A DNA stretch of 9,786 bases from an uncultured Microbacteriaceae bacterium (GTDB lineage: Bacteria; Actinomycetota; Actinomycetes; Actinomycetales; Microbacteriaceae), in NCBI GenBank assembly GCA_946481135.1, contig CAMLMQ010000106.1:1-9786 (forward strand), given 5' to 3'. This document shows positions 1-9,786 of the stretch, in pieces. Within the stretch, counting starts at the first letter, position 1. Each line of letters starts with the position of its first letter. Under the pieces are notes generated by a model. It made no database searches and was not told the DNA's origin. It worked only from the letters and a program-made list of their open reading frames with translations. The translations under genes were made by a program, and so were the position numbers.

Positions 1-322
1 CCCAGGCATCCAGCTCGGTCGTCTCGATCGAGTCGTCGTCGGCGGGCGAGATGCCCGCGTTGTTGAAGGCGATGTCGACGCGGCCGAGCTCCGCCGCAGC
101 GGTGTCGAAGAGGGCGTCGACATCCGCCTTGTCGGCGACGTTGGCGCGCACGAAGAGGCCGCCGACCTCCTCGGCCGCCGCCTGGCCCGTCGCCGGATCG
201 AGGTCGCCGATCACCACCCGGGCTCCTTCCGCGGCGAAGCGGCGGGCGGTCGCGAGACCGATGCCGGAAGCGCCGCCCGTGATGACGGCGACGCGGTCGG
301 CGAGGCGCTGGGTGAGGTCCAT
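1..322 (-). CDS. Short-chain dehydrogenase/reductase (SDR), N-terminal part, cut by the window edge
   Basis: The visible 107 residues are the NAD(P)-binding half of a classical SDR. A TGGASGIG glycine motif (TGxxxGxG) lies at residues 15-22 after the first beta strand, an acidic residue ends strand 2 (VVIGDLD), and the NNAG motif follows DIAF near residue 89. The Ser-Tyr-Lys catalytic part lies outside the window. The ATG at 322 is chosen because AGGAG sits at 328-332, 5 nt upstream, inside the end of the aldehyde dehydrogenase gene; the gap between the two genes is 2 nt, so they should be co-transcribed and probably coupled. SDRs are often labelled 3-oxoacyl-ACP reductase by default. Here the context suggests oxidation of an alcohol (inference), for instance the hydroxyl of a gamma-glutamylated amino alcohol, producing the substrate of the neighbouring aldehyde dehydrogenase. 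The family call is firm; the substrate is not. Confidence 0.9.
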   Translation of the reverse strand, partial: MDLTQRLADRVAVITGGASGIGLATARRFAAEGARVVIGDLDPATGQAAAEEVGGLFVRANVADKADVDALFDTAAAELGRVDIAFNNAGISPADDDSIETTELDAW

Positions 323-324
323 GG

Positions 325-1701
325 TCACTCCTGGGTGCTGAAGAACACGTTCTTGGTCTCGGTGAAGTGCAGGGGCGCGTCGGGGCCGAGTTCGCGACCG
401 AGGCCGGAGTGCTTCATGCCGCCGAAGGGCGTCGTGTAGCGCACCGACGAGTGCGAGTTGACGGAGAGGTTGCCGCTCTCGACGCCGCGCGCGACGCGGA
501 TGCCGCGACCGAGGTCGCGGGTCCAGATCGAGCCCGAGAGCCCGTACACCGATGCGTTCGCGAGGGCGATCGCATCCGCCTCGTCGTCGAAGGGCAGCAC
601 GCTCACGACAGGTCCGAAGATCTCGTCGATCGCCACCCGGTCGGTGCGCGCGGGGAGCAGCACGGTGGGCGCCATCCAGAAGCCCTTCCCCTCGGGTGCG
701 GTGCCGCGGAAGGCGACGGGCGCGCCGTCGAGGAACGACGACACCGAGTCGCGGTGCGCCGCCGAGACGAGCGGACCCATCTCGGTCGCCTCGTCGCGGG
801 GGTCGCCGACGCGCCACGCCGCGACGGCCGGCTCGAGCAGCTCGAGGAACCGGTCGAGCACCGACCGCTCGACGAGCAGCCGCGATCGGGCGCAGCAGTC
901 CTGCCCCGCGTTGTCGAACACCGACCCGGGGGCGGTCGCCGCCGCCCGCTCGAGGTCGGCGTCGGCGAAGACGATGTTGGCGCTCTTGCCGCCGAGTTCC
1001 AGGGTCACGGGCTTCACCTGCGCGGCGGCACCCGCGGCCACGCGCATGCCGACCTCGGTGGATCCCGTGAAGACGATCTTGCGCACATCCGGGTGGGTGA
1101 CGAACCGCTCCCCGACGACGGCGCCGCGACCCGGCAGCACCTGGAAGAGGTGCTCGGGCAGCCCCGACTCGAGCCCGAGTTCGCCGAGCCGGATCGCGGT
1201 GAGCGGCGTCCAGTCGGCGGGCTTGAGCAGCACGGCGTTGCCCGCGGCGAGCGCAGGGGCGAACCCCCACGACGCGATCGTCATCGGGAAGTTCCACGGC
1301 ACGATCACCCCGACGACGCCGATCGGCTCGTGGAAGGTGACATCGATGCCGCCCGCGACCGGGATCTGTGCCCCGATCAGCCGCTCGGGAGCTCCAGCGT
1401 AGTAGTGGAGCACGTCCCGCACGTGTCCCGCCTCCCAGCGAGCCGACGAGATCGGGTGCCCCGAGTTGCGCACCTCGAGCTGTGCGAGCTCCTCGACGTG
1501 GGCGTCGACGGTCGCGGCGAACCGTCGCAGCGCGGCCGCACGATCGGCCGGCGCGAGGGATGCCCACGCGCGCTGGGCGACGACGGCGCGGGCGACGGCG
1601 GCATCCACCTCGTCGAGCGGGGTGTGGGCGACCTCGCCGATCACCGACTCGTCGGCCGGGTTGACGAGGATCGTGCTCGCGCCGTCGTGGGCCTGCGTCA
1701 T
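325..1701 (-). CDS. NAD(P)-dependent aldehyde dehydrogenase, probably acting on a gamma-glutamylated amino-aldehyde
   Basis: This 458-residue protein has the full ALDH signature: PWNFP with the oxyanion-hole Asn at N137, the Rossmann FTGSTEVG at 211-218, the general-base Glu in LELGGK (E235), the nucleophile region GQDCCA with C269 in the catalytic position, and EIFGPV at 360-365. It is slightly shorter than the usual 475-500 residues, mainly at the N-terminus. The ATG at 1701 is chosen because it overlaps the stop of the preceding hydrolase gene as ATGA; longer in-frame starts would run far into that gene. In the Puu pathway the homologous enzyme (PuuC) oxidises gamma-glutamyl-gamma-aminobutyraldehyde. 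Here the product could instead be gamma-glutamylglycine if the operon handles ethanolamine (inference from the permease and the SDR). Enzyme class is certain; substrate is inferred. Confidence 0.93.
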   Translation of the reverse strand: MTQAHDGASTILVNPADESVIGEVAHTPLDEVDAAVARAVVAQRAWASLAPADRAAALRRFAATVDAHVEELAQLEVRNSGHPISSARWEAGHVRDVLHYYAGAPERLIGAQIPVAGGIDVTFHEPIGVVGVIVPWNFPMTIASWGFAPALAAGNAVLLKPADWTPLTAIRLGELGLESGLPEHLFQVLPGRGAVVGERFVTHPDVRKIVFTGSTEVGMRVAAGAAAQVKPVTLELGGKSANIVFADADLERAAATAPGSVFDNAGQDCCARSRLLVERSVLDRFLELLEPAVAAWRVGDPRDEATEMGPLVSAAHRDSVSSFLDGAPVAFRGTAPEGKGFWMAPTVLLPARTDRVAIDEIFGPVVSVLPFDDEADAIALANASVYGLSGSIWTRDLGRGIRVARGVESGNLSVNSHSSVRYTTPFGGMKHSGLGRELGPDAPLHFTETKNVFFSTQE

Positions 1702-2423
1702 CGCCGAGTCCCCGCGTAGTGCCGGGCCGCGTCGACGAGACCGGCGAACAGCCGGGCGTCCTCGGCGGCATCCTCTTCGGGGTGCCATTGCACCGCCACA
1801 CCGAACGGCACCTCGGGAAGCTCGATGCCGTAGACGGTGCCGTCGGCGGTGTGCGCCGTCGCGCGCAGGCCCATGCCGAGGTCGGCGACCGCCTGGTGGT
1901 GGTAGCTCTTGCCGGTCACGGTGCCGCCGACGAGTTCGGCGAGCGTCGACCCCTGCTCGACGCGTGCCTCGGTGTCGGTGAACACGCCGCCGCCGGCGTT
2001 GTACCGGTCGTCACCGACGAGGTCGGGGAGGTGCTGATGCAGGGTGCCGCCGCGGGCGACGTTGAGCAGCTGCAGGCCGCGGCAGATGCCGAGGAACGGC
2101 AGCTCGCGCACGATCGCGCGCGTGAGCAGGGTCTCCTCGAACGCGTCGCGCTCGGGGTTCGGCCGGTCGGCCTTCTCGTGGCGTTCGGCGCCGTAGCGCG
2201 CGGCGTCGATGTCACCTCCGCCGGTGATGATGAGCCCGTCGAGCCCGTCGAGGATGCGGTCCGCGCTCCCATCGTCGATCGGCTGCGGGGGCAGCAGCAC
2301 GGGAATGCCGCCCGCCGCCTGCACCGCCTCGAAGTAGACGGCGGGCAGGTACGAGGCGGTCGTGTCCCACACGCCCGTCTGCGCACGCTGCTTGTAGGTG
2401 GTCAACCCGATCACCGGCTTCAC
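1698..2423 (-). CDS. Gamma-glutamyl-amide hydrolase, class I glutamine amidotransferase fold (peptidase C26, PuuD-like)
   Basis: The 241-residue protein starts VKPVIGLTTY, as is common in PuuD-type hydrolases. It carries the ITGGGDID loop (66-73), the nucleophile elbow LGICRG with C114, the SYHHQAV segment (173-179) and the VQWHPE motif with H214 and E216, completing a Cys-His-Glu triad. In the family these enzymes cleave gamma-glutamyl-gamma-aminobutyrate to glutamate and GABA. Here it would release glutamate and the oxidised amine at the end of the pathway. The GTG at 2423 is the likely start: it overlaps the stop of the ligase gene (GTGA), and no ATG in this frame fits the conserved N-terminus. 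The reading frame stays open far upstream opposite and across the ligase gene, but that extension is arginine-rich shadow sequence. The 3' end overlaps the aldehyde dehydrogenase start by 4 nt. Confidence 0.92.
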   Translation of the reverse strand: MKPVIGLTTYKQRAQTGVWDTTASYLPAVYFEAVQAAGGIPVLLPPQPIDDGSADRILDGLDGLIITGGGDIDAARYGAERHEKADRPNPERDAFEETLLTRAIVRELPFLGICRGLQLLNVARGGTLHQHLPDLVGDDRYNAGGGVFTDTEARVEQGSTLAELVGGTVTGKSYHHQAVADLGMGLRATAHTADGTVYGIELPEVPFGVAVQWHPEEDAAEDARLFAGLVDAARHYAGTRR

Positions 2424-3778
2424 AGTCGCTCGAACCCCCGCACGCGCTCCCAGTCGGTGATCGCCGCGTCGAAGGCGCGCTGCTCGACGCGGGCGTTGGT
2501 GAGGTAGTGCTCGACGACGGCGTCCCCGAACGCCTCCCGGGCGACGGCCGACCCGGCGAACAGCTCGGCGGCGTCGCGCAGCGACGTCGGCACGCGCGGC
2601 TTGTCGGAGACGTAGGCGTTGCCGCGGAGCTCGGGTTCGAGGTCGAGTTCGTTCTCGATGCCGTACAGCCCGCCCGCGATGATCGCGGCGACCGCGAGGT
2701 AGGGGTTCACGTCGCCCCCGGGCACGCGGTTCTCGACGCGCAGCCCGGCCCCGTGTCCGACGACGCGGAGGGCGCACGTGCGGTTGTCGCGACCCCACGC
2801 GATCGCGGTCGGGGCGAACGAGCCCTCGACGTAGCGCTTGTAGGAGTTGATGTTCGGCGCGGAGAAGAGCGTGAGCTCGCGCATCGTCGCGAGGATGCCG
2901 GCCGTCCACTGCTCGGCGAGCTTCGACATCCCGTCGCCCTCGGCCATCACGGCCTCGCCGTTCGTGCCCCGCACGGAGAGATGGATGTGGCACGAGTTGC
3001 CCTCGCGCTCGTTGAACTTCGCCATGAAGGTGAGCGACTTGCCGTGGGCGTCGGCGATCTCTTTCGCGCCGTTCTTGTAGATGACGTGGTTGTCGCATGT
3101 CGCGAGCGCCTCGGTGTAGCGGAACGCGATCTCCTGCTGACCGAGGTTGCACTCGCCCTTGACGCCCTCGCAGTACATGCCGGCGCCCTCCATCCCGAGC
3201 CGGATGTCGCGCAGCAGCGGCTCCATGCGGGTCGAGGCGAGCAGGGCGTAGTCGATGTTGTAGTCCGACGCGGGGGTGAGGTCGCGGTAGCCCTTCGCCC
3301 AGGCCTCGCGGAACGTGTCGTCGAAGACGATGAACTCCAGTTCGGTGCCGACGAACGGCACGAGACCCTTCTGCGCGAGCCGCTCGATCTGTCGCGTCAA
3401 AATGGCGCGCGGGCTGACCTCGACACCCACCCCGTCGGTCGTGGTCAGGTCGGCCATCACGAGCGCCGAACCCGGCAGCCACGGGATGAGGCGCAGGGTG
3501 TCGAAGTCGGGCTTGAGCACCATGTCGCCGTAGCCGGTGTCCCACGACGAGATCGCGTACCCGTCGACGGTGTTGTTCTCGACGTCGACCGCGAGCAGGT
3601 AGTTGCATGCCTCGGCGCCGTGGGCGGCGACATCCTCGCGGAACAGCCGGGCGGCGACCCGCTTGCCGACGAGCCGACCCTGCATGTCGGCGAACGCGAG
3701 CACGACGGTGTCGATCTCGCGGCGGTCGATGAGCGCGGTCAGCTCGTCGAGGGTCAGGTTGCCGGAACGGACGCCCAT
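2420..3778 (-). CDS. Gamma-glutamyl-amine ligase of the glutamine synthetase family (PuuA / GlnA3 / GlnA4 type)
   Basis: This 452-residue protein is a GS-I-fold ATP-dependent ligase that would join glutamate to an amine. Visible metal and nucleotide ligands are E146 and E148 (GTELEF), E204 and E209 (EGVKGE), E216 (GQQEI), H264 and H266 (SCHIHLS), R315 (NSYKRY), WGRDNRT at 329-334 and E349-N350-R351. The ammonium-site Glu that lies in a GYEAP-like loop of true glutamine synthetases appears as GSFAP here (F321), and no GlnA-like adenylylation tyrosine loop (NLYDLPPEE type) is seen; GNAYVSDKPRVPTSL stands in that area. Both features fit an amine ligase rather than an ammonia-assimilating enzyme. 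In Streptomyces, GlnA3 is reported to act on polyamines and GlnA4 on ethanolamine. The adjacent ethanolamine-type permease makes ethanolamine the better guess, but putrescine or another amine stays possible. The ATG at 3778 has GAGGAG at 3784-3789, 5 nt upstream. It is the first gene of the operon. Confidence 0.93.
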   Translation of the reverse strand: MGVRSGNLTLDELTALIDRREIDTVVLAFADMQGRLVGKRVAARLFREDVAAHGAEACNYLLAVDVENNTVDGYAISSWDTGYGDMVLKPDFDTLRLIPWLPGSALVMADLTTTDGVGVEVSPRAILTRQIERLAQKGLVPFVGTELEFIVFDDTFREAWAKGYRDLTPASDYNIDYALLASTRMEPLLRDIRLGMEGAGMYCEGVKGECNLGQQEIAFRYTEALATCDNHVIYKNGAKEIADAHGKSLTFMAKFNEREGNSCHIHLSVRGTNGEAVMAEGDGMSKLAEQWTAGILATMRELTLFSAPNINSYKRYVEGSFAPTAIAWGRDNRTCALRVVGHGAGLRVENRVPGGDVNPYLAVAAIIAGGLYGIENELDLEPELRGNAYVSDKPRVPTSLRDAAELFAGSAVAREAFGDAVVEHYLTNARVEQRAFDAAITDWERVRGFERL

Positions 3779-3783
3779 GGTTA

Positions 3784-3789
3784 CTCCTC
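3784..3789 (-). promoter_or_regulatory. Ribosome binding site of the ligase gene
   Basis: GAGGAG on the minus strand, 5 nt before the ATG at 3778, fixes that start codon for the first gene of the amine operon. Confidence 0.75.
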
Positions 3790-3835
3790 GCGGTCGCGGA
3801 CTCGACCATTACAGCGTAGGGGCGTCGTCAAGAGC

Positions 3836-3850
3836 CGTGATCGCGTCACG
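3836..3850. promoter_or_regulatory. Candidate operator: inverted repeat CGTGA-N5-TCACG
   Basis: Two perfect 5-bp arms flank TCGCG, directly upstream of the TTGACG box of the ligase operon and close to the midpoint of the divergent region. It resembles CRP/GlxR-type sites (TGTGA-N6-TCACA) but has a 5-nt spacer and lacks the outer T/A, so another dimeric regulator is equally likely. Short arms mean it could be chance. Confidence 0.3.
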
Positions 3851-3956
3851 CACTTTTTACATCCAAAGGTAGACACCGGGTACCAATGAGGGCCATTCTC
3901 GTGTCCAAGCGCGGACGCCGGAGTCCCGGCTCTCACGCGTACCCCCGTCCCCTCGA

Positions 3957-3963
3957 AGAAGGA
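3957..3963 (+). promoter_or_regulatory. Ribosome binding site of the ethanolamine-type permease
   Basis: AGAAGGA ends 5 nt before the ATG at 3969. The alternative GTG at 3966 would be only 2 nt away, so the ATG is preferred. Confidence 0.65.
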
Positions 3964-3968
3964 CCGTG

Positions 3969-5522
3969 ATGGCTGAACAGAAGCAGGTCGCCGGCGTCAA
4001 ATACACGAGCGCCGGCCAGGAGTACTTCGCCAAGCGCAGACTGCGACGCAGCGCCGGCGTGTGGGGCCTGTGGGGCCTCGCCGTCGCCGCCGTCATCTCG
4101 GGCGACTTCTCGGGCTGGAACTTCGGCATCGACTTCGCCGGGTTCGGCGGGATGCTGATCGCCTTCGTCGTGCTCGTGATCATGTACTACGGCCTCACCT
4201 TCTCGATCGGCGAGATGGCGGCCGCGATGCCGCACACCGGCGGCGCGTACTCGTTCTCTCGTTCGGCGATGGGCCCGTGGGGCGGTCTCGCGACCGGACT
4301 CGCGGAGACCATCGAGTATGTCGCGACGACGGCGGTGATCGTCTTCTTCTCGGCCCTGTACGCCAACGGCATCACGACAGAACTGCTCGGGTTCGACCTC
4401 TCCGACAACATGTGGATCTGGTGGGTCGCGCTCTACCTGGTCTTCATCGGGCTCAACGCCGCCGGTGCCGCGATCTCGTTCCGCTTCGCGATCGTCGTGT
4501 CGGTCATCTCGATCGGCATCATCGTGGTCTTCGGCGTGATGGCCCTCGTCTCGGGTGCCTTCAAGTGGGACCTGCTGTGGAACATCGCCCCCAACCCCGA
4601 GGTCGCCGGAGCTTCGACGTTCCTGCCCGAAGGCATCTTCCCGATTCTGTTCGCGCTCCCGTTCGCGATGTGGTTCTTCCTCGGCATCGAGGAGCTGCCG
4701 CTCGCGGCGGAGGAGTCGCACGACCCGTCCCGTGACATCCCGCGGGCCGGTGTCTGGGCACGCGGCACCCTCATCGTCACGGGTCTCATCGTGCTGTTCC
4801 TCAACACGGGCGTGATCGGAGCCGACGCAACGGGAGTGTCGGGTGAACCACTGCTCGACGGTTTCCGTGCGATCGTCGGCGACCAGGCCGCGGCGGTGCT
4901 CGCTCTGCTCGCTCTCGTCGGGTTGTTCGCCTCGCTGATGGGCATCATGTTCGCCTACGGACGCAACATGTACTCCCTCTCGCGGGCCGGCTACTACCCG
5001 AAGTTCCTCTCGCTGACCGGCAAACGCCAGACCCCGTGGGTCGCGCTGGTTGTCGGCGCCATCCTCGGGTTCGTCGCGCTCGTCCTCCTCGACCTGCTGA
5101 GCCGCCTCAGCCCCGACGGTGCGGGTGCCGTCGCCGGCGCGATCATTCTGAACATCGCCGTGTGGGGCGCCGTGCTGGCGTACATCCTGCAGATGGTGTC
5201 GTTCATCATCCTGCGCCGGAAGTTCCCGAGTGTCTCGCGTCCGTACCGTTCGCCGTGGGGCCTCCCGGGCGCGTGGGCGGCGGCGATCATCGCGGCGATC
5301 GTCTTCGTCGGCGTGCTCATCAACCCGGCGTTCACCCCGGCGATCATCGCCATCGTCGTCGTCTACGTCGTCATCTTCATCGGCTTCGCGGTGTACGGCC
5401 GACACCGGCTCGTGCTCTCCCCCGAGGAGGAGTACGCGCTCTCGGGCGGCTTGCACGGCGACCCGCAGAAGGAGGGCTACGACGCCATGGAGGGCGAGGT
5501 GCCGGGCACCGGGAAGAAGTAA
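3969..5522 (+). CDS. APC-superfamily amine permease, ethanolamine-transporter (EAT) type
   Basis: This is a 517-residue integral membrane protein with a cytoplasmic N-terminus of about 30 residues, about 12 hydrophobic helices and a hydrophilic C-terminal tail (about 478-517, acidic and lysine-rich). Family-type motifs are SGDFSGWNFGI (44-54) in helix 1, GEMAAAMPHTGGAYSFSRSAMGP (81-103) after helix 2, FLGIEELPLAAEE (237-249) followed by DPSRDIPRA in the helix 6-7 loop, and AYGRNMYSLSRAGYYPK (329-345) after helix 8. The helix 1 segment with SGD-x-x-GWNFG and the GIEELPLAAEE segment are what I associate with bacterial ethanolamine permeases rather than with polyamine or amino acid branches. Proton-coupled import of ethanolamine or a similar small amine is the likely role, feeding the ligase encoded divergently. 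Start: ATG at 3969 with AGAAGGA upstream. A strong hairpin terminator follows 16 nt after the stop. Confidence 0.88.
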   Translation: MAEQKQVAGVKYTSAGQEYFAKRRLRRSAGVWGLWGLAVAAVISGDFSGWNFGIDFAGFGGMLIAFVVLVIMYYGLTFSIGEMAAAMPHTGGAYSFSRSAMGPWGGLATGLAETIEYVATTAVIVFFSALYANGITTELLGFDLSDNMWIWWVALYLVFIGLNAAGAAISFRFAIVVSVISIGIIVVFGVMALVSGAFKWDLLWNIAPNPEVAGASTFLPEGIFPILFALPFAMWFFLGIEELPLAAEESHDPSRDIPRAGVWARGTLIVTGLIVLFLNTGVIGADATGVSGEPLLDGFRAIVGDQAAAVLALLALVGLFASLMGIMFAYGRNMYSLSRAGYYPKFLSLTGKRQTPWVALVVGAILGFVALVLLDLLSRLSPDGAGAVAGAIILNIAVWGAVLAYILQMVSFIILRRKFPSVSRPYRSPWGLPGAWAAAIIAAIVFVGVLINPAFTPAIIAIVVVYVVIFIGFAVYGRHRLVLSPEEEYALSGGLHGDPQKEGYDAMEGEVPGTGKK

Positions 5523-5538
5523 GGCCCGCACCTTCGGC

Positions 5539-5579
5539 GACGGCCTCCTCGCGCGCGGTTGTGGCGCGGGGAGGCCGTC
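5539..5579 (+). terminator. Hairpin terminator downstream of the permease
   Basis: Arms GACGGCCTCCTCGCGC (5539-5554) and GCGCGGGGAGGCCGTC (5564-5579) pair over 16 positions with one T-G wobble and a 9-nt loop. It begins 16 nt after the permease stop. There is no T tract after the stem, which is common for actinobacterial terminators. The loop and 3' arm also carry the putative promoter of the next gene. Confidence 0.75.
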
Positions 5580-5587
5580 ACTACGTT
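5559..5587 (+). promoter_or_regulatory. Putative promoter of a leaderless transcript
   Basis: TTGTGG (5559-5564) and TACGTT (5582-5587, matching TANNNT) are exactly 17 nt apart. The -10 box ends 6 nt before the ATG at 5594, so transcription would start at or next to the start codon. No Shine-Dalgarno sequence precedes that ATG. This is the usual geometry of leaderless genes in actinobacteria. The -35 box lies in the terminator loop. Confidence 0.5.
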
Positions 5588-5593
5588 GTCGCC

Positions 5594-5935
5594 ATGACCG
5601 TGGATCAGCCCGACACGACCCCCGAGGATGCGGCCGCCCCCGTCGTCGCCGCCGCCCGCACCGCGGGCGGGGCCGTGCTCGTCGTACTCGGTGTCGCGAT
5701 GGTGCTCGCGGGCGGGTTCTGGTTCTTCCTCGTGCCCTGGTTCGGCTGGGCGACGGAGGGCTTCTGGTTCGCGATGGCGGACTGGGCGGACCTCGGCGGC
5801 GCGGCCCTCGGCATCCTCGGCTTCGTCGTGCTCGTGCTCGGCGCGGCCCTCATCCAGCGGGCGCGGAAGCGGCGGTTCGAGGTGCTCGTCGACCCGAGCG
5901 CGGTGGTTCAGGGCGACTCGACGTCGGAACGCTGA
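5594..5935 (+). CDS. Small two-helix membrane protein of unknown function
   Basis: The protein has 113 residues: an acidic, proline- and alanine-rich N-terminus (1-22), a hydrophobic helix at about 26-49 ending in the aromatic stretch GGFWFFLVPWFGW, a short loop with further aromatic residues (EGFWFAMADWADLG, 55-68), a second helix at about 68-88, a basic stop-transfer segment (RARKRR, 89-94) and a polar tail. Two helices with a basic segment after the second suggest both termini are cytoplasmic. I recognise no family. The ATG at 5594 is supported by a -10 box placed for a leaderless transcript, and the reading frame upstream overlaps the terminator and permease and is not coding. The gene converges on the second APC permease, and their last 28 bp overlap tail to tail. 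Coding status rests on membrane-protein composition and the start context. Confidence 0.75.
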   Translation: MTVDQPDTTPEDAAAPVVAAARTAGGAVLVVLGVAMVLAGGFWFFLVPWFGWATEGFWFAMADWADLGGAALGILGFVVLVLGAALIQRARKRRFEVLVDPSAVVQGDSTSER

Positions 5936-7248
5936 GCGAACCGTCGCGCGACGACGTAGAGCACCGCGCCCACCGCGAGCGCGATCGCGCCGAACAACCA
6001 CACCGTCGGACTCTGCTGCGTGAGCAGCAGCATGCACGAGGCGACGCCGAGCACCGGCACCGCGGTCCAGACGCGGAAGTGCGGATGCGCGACGCGGTCA
6101 CGACGCAGCACGAGCACCGAGACGTTGACCGAGATGAACACGACGAGCAGCAGCAGCACGACCGTCTCGGCGAGCAGCGCGAGGTCGCCGAGCAAGGTGA
6201 GCCCCATCGCGACGACGGTCGTCGCGATGATCGCGACCCACGGCGTGCGACGCTTCGGCAGCACCCGGCCGAGCACCGACGGCAGCAGCCCCTGCTGCGC
6301 CATCCCGTAGGTGAGGCGGCTCGCCATGATCATCGTGAGCAGGGCGCCGTTCGCGACCGCGATGAGTGCGACCGCACCGAAGACCATCTCGGGGATGGGC
6401 ACACCCGTCGACTCCACGACGGCGAGCAGCGGTCCCGACGTCGCGCTCAACTCGTCGGGCGCGAGGGCGATCGAACTCGCCGCCCCGACCAGCACGTAGA
6501 CGACACCCGCCGTCACGAGGGAGGCGAACAGCGCGCGCGGGTACACGCGCGACGGATCACGCACCTCCTCGACGATGTTCGCCGAGGTCTCGAACCCGAC
6601 GAAGGAGTAGTACGCGATGATCGCCGCCGCGAGGGTCGCGAGCGCCGGGTTCGCCCCGGCCGGGAACTCGGTCAGCCGGGACGTGTCACCGCCGCCCGCG
6701 CCGAGCAGGATGCCGACGCACACGATGACGAGCAGCAGGCCGGTCAGCTCGATGATCGTCATCACGACGTTGCTCGTCAGGGACTCCCGGATGCCGCGCG
6801 CGTTGAGCGCCGCGACGAGCGCGAGGAAGACGATCGCGGCCGGAATCTGCGGCACATCGAGGAACGCCCCGAGGTAGTCGCCGGCGAACGCGAGCGAGAG
6901 TCCGGCGGCGCTCACCACCCCGGCGGCGAGCATGCAGAAGCCGACGAGGAACGACACGATCGGCTTCCGGAAGGCGCGCTCGGCGAACACCGCTGCGCCG
7001 CCGGCGCGCGGATACTTCGTCACGAGTTCGGCGTACGAGCCCGCCGTGAGCAGGGCGAGCCCGAGGGCGACCACGAGCGGAAGCCACAGCACGCCGCCGA
7101 CATCCTCCGCGAGCACGCCCATGAGGGCATAGATACCCGCCCCGAGCACGTCGCCGAGGATGAAGAGGAAGAGCAGCGGCCCCGTGATCGCCCTCCGCAG
7201 CAGCGTCGGCGGAGCGGCGGGCGGCGTGGTCGCGTCGTCGGTGGTCAT
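5908..7248 (-). CDS. APC-superfamily amino acid/amine permease
   Basis: This 446-residue protein has about 12 hydrophobic helices. Helix 1 carries GDVLGAGIYALMG (32-44), the unwound-helix glycine segment of APC transporters; YPRAGGAAVFAERAF (79-93) follows helix 2, and the helix 6-7 region reads FVGFETSANIVEEVRDPSRVYPRAL (216-240), the usual Phe-x-Gly-Phe-Glu plus charged loop. It belongs to the general amino acid/cationic amino acid branch and is not close to the ethanolamine-type permease at 3969. Substrate unknown. The ATG at 7248 has GAGGGG at 7254-7259, 5 nt upstream, and that site is predicted to be paired in a hairpin. It lies 110 nt downstream of the sugar operon on the same strand, with no clear terminator in between, so it may be read from that operon or from its own promoter. 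Its 3' end overlaps the small membrane protein gene by 28 bp. Confidence 0.9.
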   Translation of the reverse strand: MTTDDATTPPAAPPTLLRRAITGPLLFLFILGDVLGAGIYALMGVLAEDVGGVLWLPLVVALGLALLTAGSYAELVTKYPRAGGAAVFAERAFRKPIVSFLVGFCMLAAGVVSAAGLSLAFAGDYLGAFLDVPQIPAAIVFLALVAALNARGIRESLTSNVVMTIIELTGLLLVIVCVGILLGAGGGDTSRLTEFPAGANPALATLAAAIIAYYSFVGFETSANIVEEVRDPSRVYPRALFASLVTAGVVYVLVGAASSIALAPDELSATSGPLLAVVESTGVPIPEMVFGAVALIAVANGALLTMIMASRLTYGMAQQGLLPSVLGRVLPKRRTPWVAIIATTVVAMGLTLLGDLALLAETVVLLLLVVFISVNVSVLVLRRDRVAHPHFRVWTAVPVLGVASCMLLLTQQSPTVWLFGAIALAVGAVLYVVARRFAQRSDVESP

Positions 7249-7304
7249 CGGATCCCCTCACCGGGCGAAGACCGCCCCGGTTCGAGAGTGCGCCGAGGGA
7301 TCCG
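7249..7304 (-). promoter_or_regulatory. RBS-sequestering hairpin in the leader of the second APC permease
   Basis: In the minus-strand transcript, CGGATCCCTC (7304-7295) can pair with GAGGGGATCCG (7259-7249) over 10 bp with one bulged G. The second arm contains the Shine-Dalgarno sequence and ends right at the ATG. The 35-nt loop holds a second hairpin, ACCGGGGCG (7281-7273) with CGCCCGGT (7267-7260) around a 5-nt loop, which would stack directly on the outer stem. Seen in sequence; the regulatory role is inferred. Confidence 0.45.
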
Positions 7305-7308
7305 ACGA

Positions 7309-7327
7309 GGCGAGGCCTGGTCTCGCC
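7309..7327 (-). other. Small hairpin in the gap between the TIM-barrel gene and the APC permease
   Basis: Arms GGCGAG and CTCGCC pair over 6 bp with a 7-nt loop, upstream of the RBS-sequestering structure. No T tract follows in the minus direction, so it is at best a weak terminator. A short (GC)5G tract lies at 7345-7355, just after the TIM-barrel stop. Confidence 0.3.
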
Positions 7328-7358
7328 CGACGTGGCGTGCTACGGCGCGCGCGCGTCG

Positions 7359-8102
7359 TCAGCGTCCGTGCGCCTCCAGCCAGTCGCGCGACACCCGGAA
7401 GCCGTCGTCGAGCGACGCCGAGCTCTCCTCGTCGACACAGAGCCAGCCATCGTATCCGCGGTCGTCGAGCACCGACAGAAGCTCCGCGAGGGGCAGGGTG
7501 CCCTCGCCGAGCAGTCGCCACTCCTCGCCGTCGAAGTCCTTGAGATGCAGGTTGTCGATGACCTCGGCGAACTCGGCGCAGAAGCCCGGAAGGTCGGCGA
7601 TCCCCGCCTTCGCGAGGTGCGCGGTGTCGACGGTCAGCCCGACGGACTCCCCCGCGACGTCGAAGAACCGCCGGACGTCGTCAGGGAGCATGACCGGCTG
7701 GCCGACGTGATGGTGCAGCGACAGAGCGACACCACGATCGGCGGCACGTCGACCCTCGTCGGCGAGTACACGGGCGAAGCCTCGCAGCACGTCGGCGTCG
7801 ACCCCGTCGCGGGGGTGGTCGTGACAGAAGATCACGCGCTCCGAGCCGACGGCCTCCGCGAAGCCGAAGATGTCGCGGAGCCGCTGGAGGCCTTCGTCGT
7901 GCAGCTTGTCGAAGACGATGAGCGCGGAGAACGCCCCCGTGTCGCCGCCCCATCGGGCCGACAGCTCACCCGGGGTCGCCAGGTGCTCGAGATACTGGCC
8001 CTGCTTGAGCTGCAGGCCCTCGTAACCCTGGTCGCGGTACTCGGCGACGAGCCGATCGACCTCGGCGGGCGCGACGGGTTTCGAGAAGGCGCGGCGCATC
8101 AC
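7359..8102 (-). CDS. Sugar phosphate isomerase/epimerase-like TIM-barrel protein (xylose-isomerase-like fold)
   Basis: This 247-residue protein fits the AP-endonuclease-2/xylose-isomerase-like TIM barrel. Likely metal-site residues are D159 and H162 (TVDTAHL), H186 and D189 (NLHLKDF) and E225 (CVDEES). The earlier strand usually bearing a Glu in an ENH-type motif reads SLHHHVGQ (128-135), which is closer to the HxH-G pattern I associate with inosose dehydratase (IolE)-like members. At 247 residues it is near the lower end for the family. The GTG at 8102 overlaps the oxidoreductase stop (GTGA) and has GAAGGG 8 nt upstream; the ATG at 8099 is a close alternative, 11 nt from that site. It follows the Gfo/Idh/MocA gene, and such pairs commonly act in successive isomerase, epimerase or dehydratase steps on a sugar or cyclitol. 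The reaction cannot be assigned. Confidence 0.85.
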   Translation of the reverse strand: MMRRAFSKPVAPAEVDRLVAEYRDQGYEGLQLKQGQYLEHLATPGELSARWGGDTGAFSALIVFDKLHDEGLQRLRDIFGFAEAVGSERVIFCHDHPRDGVDADVLRGFARVLADEGRRAADRGVALSLHHHVGQPVMLPDDVRRFFDVAGESVGLTVDTAHLAKAGIADLPGFCAEFAEVIDNLHLKDFDGEEWRLLGEGTLPLAELLSVLDDRGYDGWLCVDEESSASLDDGFRVSRDWLEAHGR

Positions 8103-9106
8103 GCCGCCAGCCCTTCGGGCAACCCGTCGACGAAACGCACCTGGCGGCCGTTCTCGGCGGCCGAGGCGTAGACCGCCTCGAGCAACCCGATGACGTGCAC
8201 GTTGTCACGTCCCGAGTTCACGGGGTCGGAGTCCGACTCGATGCCGTCGAGCAGGTGCTCGAGCTGCCGGTAGGCGCTCAGATGCTTGCCCCCTCCGAGC
8301 CCCTCGGCCACGCGCGTCTCCACACCCGACTCGGTGCGGATCTCCAAGCGGTCGTAATCCAGGTGGAGGGTGCCGCTCTCTCCGAGAACCGTCGTCTCCG
8401 TGCGATCGACCCGGCTCGAGAAGCTCTGCACGAGGGATGCGGAGACACTGCCGAAGCGGGCGAGCGCGAAGGTGTCGGTGTCGCCGCCCGTCGCAATCGC
8501 CGGTGACGATGTCGTCGTCGCCACGAGCCAGTCCGCCTCCTTCCCGGTGAGCAGTCGAAAGGCGTCGAACCAGTGCACCCCCATGATCATCAGCGCATAG
8601 CGGTCGAGCTCCATCCGCCAGCCGACTTCGCTGCGGAACTGCAACTCGCGCTGCTCGATCCCGATCAGCTCGCCGATGAGTCCCTCGTCGATCGCGGCGC
8701 GCGCGAGCTCGAAAGGGTAGTGGTCGCGGAAGTTCTGATCGACCGCCAGCCGGATCCCCGCCTCGTCGGCAAGGCGCACCATCTCCCGGGCTTCCGCGAC
8801 GGTGTTGGCGAACGGCTTCTCGACGAGGATGTGCTTTCCCGCCGCCGCGAGCTCCGCCACGGCGGGCACCCGGATGTGGCTGGGCGTCGCGACGACCGCG
8901 ACGTCGAACGCGAGGTCGCGTACGGCATCCGCGATCGAGGCCACCGTGGGCACCCCGTAGGCCTCTTCGGCCCAGGCGCGGCGGTCGGGGGTCGGGTCGA
9001 CGGCGCCGACCAGCTCGATGCGCTCCGGTCGCGCGGCGAAGTAGTCGAAGTGCATCGACGAGATCCGTCCGGCGCCGACGACGACGACGCGGTGACGCCG
9101 CGTCAT
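8099..9106 (-). CDS. Gfo/Idh/MocA-family NAD(P)-dependent oxidoreductase
   Basis: This 335-residue protein has an N-terminal Rossmann domain (VVVVGAGRIS, 7-16; acidic AVDP at 35-38), the VVATP strand (71-75), the hallmark EKPF with K97 (96-99), and the C-terminal alpha/beta domain with MGVHWFDAFRLLTG (175-188), where H178 and D181 take the place of the usual catalytic His/Asp region. The family oxidises or reduces sugars, inositols and related polyols. The ATG at 9106 overlaps the cupin stop (ATGA) and has GAGGTGA at 9114-9120, 7 nt upstream. Downstream it overlaps the TIM-barrel gene. With an ABC permease and a cupin upstream, it probably performs a dehydrogenation step on the imported sugar (inference). 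Confidence 0.92.
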   Translation of the reverse strand: MTRRHRVVVVGAGRISSMHFDYFAARPERIELVGAVDPTPDRRAWAEEAYGVPTVASIADAVRDLAFDVAVVATPSHIRVPAVAELAAAGKHILVEKPFANTVAEAREMVRLADEAGIRLAVDQNFRDHYPFELARAAIDEGLIGELIGIEQRELQFRSEVGWRMELDRYALMIMGVHWFDAFRLLTGKEADWLVATTTSSPAIATGGDTDTFALARFGSVSASLVQSFSSRVDRTETTVLGESGTLHLDYDRLEIRTESGVETRVAEGLGGGKHLSAYRQLEHLLDGIESDSDPVNSGRDNVHVIGLLEAVYASAAENGRQVRFVDGLPEGLAA

Positions 9107-9483
9107 TCGCCGATCACCTCACGATGCGCGGTGTCGAACACGATGACGAGCTCGCACTGCTCGTCCCCGATGTTCGTCGCATTGTGGATCGAGCCGACAG
9201 GGATCGAGATCGTGTCGCCCGGCCCCATCTCGACATACTCGTCGCCGACCCGGTGCCGGATGCGGCCCCTCACGACGTGGAGCACCTCGTCGCAGTTCGG
9301 GTGGTGATGCACGGGGTTCGCCCGGCCCGGATCGATGAAGCACTTCCCCACCGTGAGCACATCGGAGTTGCCGAGCGAACCGGCGACCATCCACTCCAGT
9401 CGACCCCAGTCCTGCGGCTCGACGCGCACCGCGTCGGCCGGCTGGAGTCCTCCACGGTGTGCGGGCTGCGCTGAATCCGTCAT
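9103..9483 (-). CDS. Single-domain cupin protein
   Basis: The 126-residue protein matches both cupin motifs. Motif 1 is G53-x5-H59-x-H61-x4-E66-x6-G73 and motif 2 is G89-x5-P95-x-G97-x2-H100-x3-N104, so the usual four metal ligands (H59, H61, E66, H100) are all present. Cupins in sugar operons act as isomerases, epimerases, dioxygenases or sugar sensors; no substrate can be read here. The ATG at 9483 is chosen because GAAAGGA lies 7 nt upstream (9491-9497); a longer frame from a TTG at 9504 would translate through that ribosome binding site. It starts 28 nt after the ABC permease stop and its own stop overlaps the oxidoreductase start, placing it in the operon. Confidence 0.92.
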   Translation of the reverse strand: MTDSAQPAHRGGLQPADAVRVEPQDWGRLEWMVAGSLGNSDVLTVGKCFIDPGRANPVHHHPNCDEVLHVVRGRIRHRVGDEYVEMGPGDTISIPVGSIHNATNIGDEQCELVIVFDTAHREVIGE

Positions 9484-9490
9484 TGTCGTT

Positions 9491-9497
9491 TCCTTTC
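9491..9497 (-). promoter_or_regulatory. Ribosome binding site of the cupin gene
   Basis: GAAAGGA on the minus strand, 7 nt before the ATG at 9483, decides that start over the upstream TTG. Confidence 0.65.
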
Positions 9498-9511
9498 TTG
9501 GCAAGCTGAGT

Positions 9512-9786
9512 TCAGTCCTTGACCGCGCCGGCGGCGAGTCCGCTCGTGATCTGCCGTTGGAACAGCAGGAACACGACGACGATGGGGATGGCGACCACCG
9601 TCGACGCCGCCATGAGTGGGCCCCAGTCGGTGCCGTACTGGCCGATGAACGAGTTGAGGGTCACCGTCACGGGCTGGATCTCGGACTTCGTCGTGAGCGT
9701 GAGCCCGAAGATGAACTCGCCCCAGGTCATGACGAACGCGAAGACCGCGACCGACCATATCGCAGTCCTGCGCCCGCATGCCTGGC
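9512..9786 (-). CDS. Carbohydrate ABC transporter permease (MalG type), C-terminal part, cut by the window edge
   Basis: About 90 C-terminal residues are visible. The frame is open to the window edge, so the ATG at 9730 is internal, not a start. The segment AIWSVAVFAFVMTWGEFIFGLTL is the last part of the inner-membrane permease domain; the expected elements follow: a periplasmic-side stretch QPVTVTLNSF, the YGTDWGPLMAAS block before the last helix, a final helix (VVAIPIVVVFLLFQR) and the conserved tail GLAAGAVKD, nearly identical to the GLTAGAVKG ending common in CUT1 sugar permeases. It would form one half of the membrane channel of a sugar importer together with a partner permease, a solute-binding protein and an ATPase outside the window. 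It is the upstream member of the operon seen here. Confidence 0.93.
   Translation of the reverse strand, partial: QACGRRTAIWSVAVFAFVMTWGEFIFGLTLTTKSEIQPVTVTLNSFIGQYGTDWGPLMAASTVVAIPIVVVFLLFQRQITSGLAAGAVKD

Follow-up and report, generated by a model that had tools for sequence, protein, structure and literature searches.

Described gamma-glutamyl pathways and the Microbacteriaceae locus

Krysenko et al. (2019; PMC6529630) described a Streptomyces gene cluster, SCO1610-SCO1615, and proposed that it serves growth on ethanolamine through gamma-glutamyl intermediates. According to that work, Streptomyces coelicolor GlnA4 forms its product in vitro with a Km of 0.47 mM for ethanolamine and 85 mM for glutamate, a glnA4 mutant cannot use ethanolamine, and EpuRI is the repressor. 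Oxidation by SCO1611 and then SCO1612, followed by hydrolysis by SCO1615, is proposed to give glycine and glutamate. SCO1615 is called a glutamine amidotransferase in Fig. 2 of the paper and is placed in the formylglutamate amidohydrolase family in its Discussion. The proposal is repeated in the relevant part of a 2022 review (PMC9397018). Here we analyzed a 9,786-nucleotide stretch of DNA from an uncultured Microbacteriaceae bacterium (contig CAMLMQ010000106.1, positions 1 to 9,786), referred to as the window. Its first 5.5 kb contains a minus-strand operon encoding a ligase of the glutamine synthetase (GS) family, a C26 hydrolase, an aldehyde dehydrogenase (ALDH), and a short-chain dehydrogenase/reductase (SDR), divergent from an APC permease. 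Taken as a whole, the locus is very probably a masked ethanolamine-to-glycine operon. A first-pass annotation had reached this reading and implied that it was new. The novelty is not supported, as the whole pathway and its gene cluster were already proposed in the GlnA4 paper, and the window is an actinobacterial, Pseudolysinimonas-like version of a known gene set.

The Streptomyces cluster shares with the window a GlnA4-type ligase, an ALDH, an SDR, a glutamine amidotransferase, and the proposed chemistry. It also includes a regulator and a permease, the latter, in the sections cited, in species other than S. coelicolor. The published Fig. 2 set is matched by Embleya (Streptomycetaceae; locus L002, with L and G numbers denoting our loci and genomes), where C26, APC, FCD, GS, ALDH, and SDR genes lie in one cluster. 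There the regulator is located between ligase and permease, and the permease and hydrolase run the opposite way. In the window, by contrast, the hydrolase lies between ligase and ALDH, the ligase and the divergent permease are direct neighbors, and the regulator would, by comparison with relatives, be at the far end of the operon.

The alphaproteobacterial Eto pathway is described for Phaeobacter MED193 in the part of PMC10132767 drawn on, which cites an earlier demonstration in Chromohalobacter and Agrobacterium. The Eto loci of Paracoccus (L092) and Aminobacter (L112) resemble the window in having a homologous ligase, an ALDH, and the same proposed intermediates. By annotation, however, the alcohol dehydrogenase of Paracoccus and Aminobacter is an iron-containing enzyme rather than an SDR, their hydrolase is an N-formylglutamate amidohydrolase rather than a C26 enzyme, and their regulator is of the RpiR type; a TRAP transporter is annotated in Phaeobacter and Paracoccus. 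The Paracoccus plasmid carries genes for N-formylglutamate amidohydrolase, TRAP transporter, ligase, ALDH, and iron alcohol dehydrogenase. Neither the Eto-type alcohol dehydrogenase nor the Eto-type amidohydrolase was found in the window, which has the SDR and the C26 hydrolase instead. The Escherichia coli Puu pathway has in common with the window a ligase, an ALDH, a C26 hydrolase, and gamma-glutamyl masking, but uses the PuuB oxidase where the window has an SDR alcohol dehydrogenase, and its ligase falls elsewhere in the tree. The EutBC pathway shares the substrate ethanolamine and, in Actinomycetes, the permease family. The first-pass annotation had described the locus as lacking EutBC; this holds for the ten window proteins scanned, among which there was no EutB, EutC, or microcompartment protein.

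Operon layout and proposed reactions

The four operon genes were identified by profile searches. The ligase (452 aa) is encoded at 2420..3778 (PF00120, 323 bits), the class I glutamine amidotransferase-like hydrolase of peptidase family C26 (241 aa) at 1698..2423 (PF07722, 202.7 bits), and the ALDH (458 aa) at 325..1701 (PF00171, 496.8 bits). The N-terminal ~109 aa of the SDR are encoded at 1..328 (PF00106, 75 bits); its reading frame is cut at position 1 by the window edge, and the C-terminal catalytic residues lie outside the window. All three junctions are overlaps of 4 bases (2420-2423, 1698-1701, and 325-328). The APC permease is on the plus strand at 3969..5522. The arrangement predicted in the first-pass annotation is thus confirmed, with the SDR incomplete. 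Relatives were fetched by their ligase as the best 80 named contigs plus four plasmid records. The GS-C26-ALDH-SDR order is kept in 70 of the 83 loci with a ligase called, the window included, so the arrangement is not due to chance; open reading frame calling missed the ligase in two of the 80 contig loci (L051 and L060), both outside the 83. The conjugative Arthrobacter plasmid L001 also carries the arrangement, which can therefore move. Genes for an amidase and for inositol monophosphatase-family and choline kinase-family proteins accompany the operon on this plasmid (L001:2554-12275), and possibly free ethanolamine from N-acyl or phospho forms.

The best-supported reading of the operon, judged from sequence, is the route from ligase through SDR and ALDH to hydrolase that had been suggested at first. 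The divergent permease would import ethanolamine, and the ligase would couple it to the gamma-carboxyl group of glutamate at the expense of ATP. The SDR, as the proposed gamma-glutamylethanolamide dehydrogenase, would convert the free hydroxyl group of gamma-glutamylethanolamide to an aldehyde while the amine is still masked. The ALDH, as gamma-glutamyl-aminoacetaldehyde dehydrogenase, would convert that aldehyde to gamma-glutamylglycine, from which the hydrolase would free glycine and give glutamate back. A GntR/FCD regulator expected left of position 1 may govern both transcripts.

The window ALDH is 40.6% identical to E. coli PuuC (blastp). Its QDCCA aligns with QVCIA of PuuC, and its ELGGKSAN with EAGGKSAN. 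The C26 hydrolase is 31% identical to E. coli PuuD, with ICRGLQ and VQWHPE common to both, and its PDB relatives include the solved PuuD chain 6vtv. In the open-licence literature surveyed, mostly as listings, no assay of an actinobacterial SDR, ALDH, or hydrolase of this kind was found.

The ligase is of the GlnA4 type

Among named proteins, those closest to the window ligase come from Pseudolysinimonas and further Microbacteriaceae, and the 28,083-base contig P0002 encodes a protein one residue off. In the PDB, the ligase matches 11zs (406 bits) and 5dm3 (380 bits) most closely, the second of which we take to be the Chromohalobacter ligase. Weaker matches include the glutamate-methylamine ligase 9qur (148 bits) and 4hpp (59 bits), and other chains named glutamine synthetase reach at most 172 bits. 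In the sections of PMC6529630 drawn on, 4hpp is PauA7. Section 12 of that paper lists the GlnA4 residues for metal, glutamate, and ATP binding and for the flap, including Phe331, which replaces the flap glutamate of GS. The window ligase has all 14 residues taken from this list, each displaced by the same -10. The best single-offset matches among the controls are 5 for PuuA, 4 for E. coli GlnA, and 4-6 for 17 GS paralogues; the ligases of Paracoccus, Aminobacter, Rhizobium, and Thermomicrobium reach 5-7, Paenarthrobacter 8, and 15 other actinobacterial GlnA4-type rows 9. None of the 14 residues is missing from those 15 rows: nine share one offset, and the remaining five, which follow a loop of differing length, have an offset greater by 2-3. 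At least 239 of 240 related ligase proteins hold both the block of nine and the block of five.

In a tree of 40 rows, the window ligase lies within a 17-row actinobacterial clade (100/100), which includes a Streptomyces protein with a UniRef name beginning "Gamma-glutamyleth". A larger clade of 21 rows (100/99) encloses it and adds the ligases of Paracoccus, Aminobacter, Rhizobium, and Thermomicrobium, of which the first two are 48.8% and 48.4% identical to the window protein. PuuA (30% identity), GlnA, and the GS paralogues fall outside the 21-row clade; PuuA and L094 are on long branches, and their placement relative to the clade is weak (86/87 and 94/87). The tree groups the ligase with GlnA4-type enzymes and away from PuuA and GlnA; clustering with polyamine-specific enzymes, named in the first-pass annotation as evidence against its reading, was not seen. 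The activity on ethanolamine that was also expected is documented for S. coelicolor GlnA4 in the cited sections of PMC6529630, not for the window protein.

The SDR family NF004713 belongs to the ligase operon

The best NCBIfam match of the window SDR fragment is NF004713/PRK06057, with 160 bits over 107 aa against a cut-off of 404. The full-length SDR of the relative L020 scores 509 bits and is thus above the cut-off. Among solved structures, 4wec comes closest to this SDR (482 bits; the next has 176); it is presumably from a Mycobacterium and deposited merely as "Short chain dehydrogenase".

We surveyed 296 Actinomycetes genomes for the ligase (E <= 1e-150) and for NF004713 (E <= 1e-100). The ligase is found in 145 genomes and the SDR in 125, every one of which also has the ligase. 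Among 126 SDR copies, 121 lie downstream of the ligase on the same strand within 5 kb; of the remaining five, four sit on a different contig from the ligase, and the fifth is an additional copy, 16.9 kb away from a second ligase. The gap between ligase and SDR in the 121 pairs fits one gene in 92 cases and two in 28, with one gap of 1,714 bases, so the form seen in the window, with the hydrolase inside the operon, is rarer in this sample. The profile has no match in 14 control genomes. NF004713 therefore belongs to the ligase operon, and its name, 3-oxoacyl-ACP reductase, is probably wrong. We regard as likely, with less assurance than the reading of the window, the joint proposal that all of NF004713 is a dedicated gamma-glutamylethanolamide dehydrogenase and that the masked pathway was put together on at least two occasions around a single type of ligase. 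Under this proposal, unrelated enzymes were recruited both to oxidize the alcohol (an SDR or an iron alcohol dehydrogenase) and to carry out the final hydrolysis (a C26 enzyme or an N-formylglutamate amidohydrolase).

Permease and probable substrate and product

TIGR00908, the ethanolamine permease, is by far the best NCBIfam match of the window permease, which is ~40% identical to the Embleya permease. The permease of L010 scores 329.5 bits, and those of the L002 and L063 clusters 488 and 539. In the survey (E <= 1e-85), TIGR00908 had 48 matches, 38 of them within 5 kb of the ligase and 34 of those divergent from it. Such proximity was found for 19 of 28 matches above the curated cut-off and for 19 of 20 below it. 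Seven permease-bearing genomes lack the ligase (G031, G036, G120, G123, G144, G151, and G271), and all of them have EutB. Inspection of the rows showed that permease and EutB are neighbors in six of the seven, with G036 having them on different contigs, and that the permease also neighbors EutB in G154. In G242 and G264, which have no EutB, the permease is apart from the ligase. Most members of the permease family thus have either the ligase or EutB as partner, a pattern that links the ligase to ethanolamine. The window permease is tied to this substrate by position, not by score, and may work like an ethanolamine permease. EutB itself is found in 31 of the 296 genomes, in 7 of 125 with ligase and SDR versus 24 of 171 others (Fisher 0.021).

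Glycine-using genes, in keeping with the predicted product, lie next to the operon in some relatives: GcvT-GcvH-GcvP in L045, GcvP-GcvT-GcvH and serine hydroxymethyltransferase (SHMT) in L078, and GcvT-GcvH-serine dehydratase in L003, all by Pfam/NCBIfam. L087 has a pattern like that of L078, judged by length and a GcvT match only. On the Aminobacter plasmid pMET3 (L112:5176-13347), the version with the iron alcohol dehydrogenase directly adjoins bhcR, bhcA, bhcB, and bhcC. BhcC presumably uses glycine. Glycine cleavage was considered as a general proof of the product and rejected, since such neighbors are rare; it is retained as supporting evidence alone. GcvP is present in 285 of the 296 genomes.

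Counter-evidence and alternative explanations

Several observations weigh against the reading as an ethanolamine-to-glycine operon. The ligase reaction is known from the S. coelicolor counterpart in the literature, and the window enzymes are known from their genes alone. The comparison with GlnA4 (SCO1613) uses published residue numbers. The two residue blocks are in register in 78 of the 240 related ligases and shifted by 2-15 in most of the rest (by 3 in named Streptomyces proteins); the residues hence mark the class but their exact spacing does not, and a single constant offset counts for less because loop length sets it. The window permease scores 325 bits, below the curated TIGR00908 cut-off of 381.75. 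Few loci have glycine-using genes next to the operon, and among the GcvP matches listed, none of those on a contig with a ligase lies within 100 kb of it, as read by eye. No SDR match was found in 20 of the 145 ligase genomes, of which 13 hold only ligases of 536-635 bits and seven hold good ligases; these genomes may represent pathway variants or another substrate. Five of the seven are 1.4-1.8 Mb in size. Finally, in L020 an FAD oxidase-GcvT fusion lies 2.2 kb past the regulator, with no blast match to PuuB. This 845-aa protein of Mycolicibacterium xanthum (L020:17194-19731; DAO, FAO_M, and GCV_T domains) is preceded by a UTRA-type GntR regulator.

The same chemistry could act on another amino alcohol or short amine, such as 1-amino-2-propanol, alaninol, or isopropylamine, with alanine or a different amino acid as the product. 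Genes of these kinds could handle any gamma-glutamyl amino alcohol, the permease score would agree with such a substrate, and related ligases have other cluster partners, for example an aminotransferase in L005 and L091. We nevertheless consider a different substrate unlikely. Of the 48 permeases, 45 have this ligase or EutB as partner (EutB neighbors being assigned by eye), the Gcv/SHMT or bhc neighbors in several lineages point to glycine, and GlnA4 is reported in the cited sections to be specific for ethanolamine among the amines tried (PMC6529630). A different cluster is present twice, in inverted orientation, on plasmid pYJN5-2 of Paenarthrobacter (L005:5177-9344 and 11226-15393), with a ligase 50% and an ALDH 70% identical to those of the window, a class III aminotransferase, and the 5-oxoprolinase PxpA nearby. 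This cluster perhaps encodes a gamma-glutamyl route for another amine.

Homology of ligase, ALDH, and hydrolase to PuuA, PuuC, and PuuD (30%, 41%, and 31% identity) is also what a Puu-like pathway for putrescine or polyamines would show. That pathway is already contradicted and hardly credible here: a PuuB homologue was found neither among the 1,462 predicted proteins (blastp E <= 1e-10) nor in the DNA (tblastn E <= 1e-3) of 90 records, window and relatives included, in line with the first-pass reading. The ligase scores 186 bits against the PuuA-type profile GGputSyn NF045547, far below its cut-off of 650, and PuuA lies outside the 21-row clade. The NCBIfam name of NF004713 would allow the SDR to be a fatty-acid 3-oxoacyl-ACP reductase whose place in the operon is accidental or serves some other function. 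This is very improbable given that NF004713 never occurs without the ligase in the genomes surveyed and is nearly always adjacent to it. Moreover, in Paracoccus and Aminobacter the iron-containing alcohol dehydrogenase occupies the equivalent position, and in Thermomicrobium an SDR, not scored against NF004713, stands side by side with the ligase and a permease annotated as eat.

Probable regulator and operator

The first-pass annotation had suggested looking left of position 1 for a regulator. Of the 83 loci, 73 have a called gene directly after the SDR, and in 53 of these it encodes a GntR regulator of the FCD type; all five such regulators scanned have GntR and FCD domains. An FCD/GntR regulator is therefore likely to lie beyond the window edge, as judged from the relatives. 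The divergent intergenic region of 190 bases holds the imperfect palindrome CCAAAGGTAGACACCGGGTACCAATG at 3863-3888, which is kept in relatives, with perfect-arm forms in L052, L020, L021, and L030, among others. The CAAAGGTA words are concentrated upstream of the ligase: 32 of the 43 found on both strands of 1.5 Mb of loci lie within 32 kb of ligase upstream regions, an enrichment that is descriptive since the operator was found by word counts in those same regions. The pattern is found in 36 of the 56 loci that have the FCD gene and in 2 of the 17 that lack it (Fisher 0.00018, uncorrected for relatedness), a count excluding the window and nine loci with no visible stretch beyond the SDR; its background is 1.8% per 390 bases. 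The palindrome is likely the operator of the FCD regulator, through which both transcripts would be governed.

Neighboring genes in the window

A second APC permease is encoded on the minus strand at 5908-7248, with TIGR00909 as its best NCBIfam match, far under the cut-off. The minus strand at 7359-9784 encodes a xylose isomerase-like protein nearest IolE, a Gfo/Idh/MocA oxidoreductase nearest IolG, a cupin, and the end of an ABC sugar permease.

Implications

New here are the linkage of both NF004713 and the permease family to the ligase across the surveyed genomes, the likely operator, and the likely regulator past the window edge. The linkage points to a common SDR family that is probably misnamed, and offers an assayable substrate for a solved structure. 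Ethanolamine is a major membrane headgroup. With the ligase in 145, ligase and SDR in 125, and EutB in 31 of the 296 genomes, the glutamyl route looks to be the commoner one for ethanolamine in Actinomycetes.

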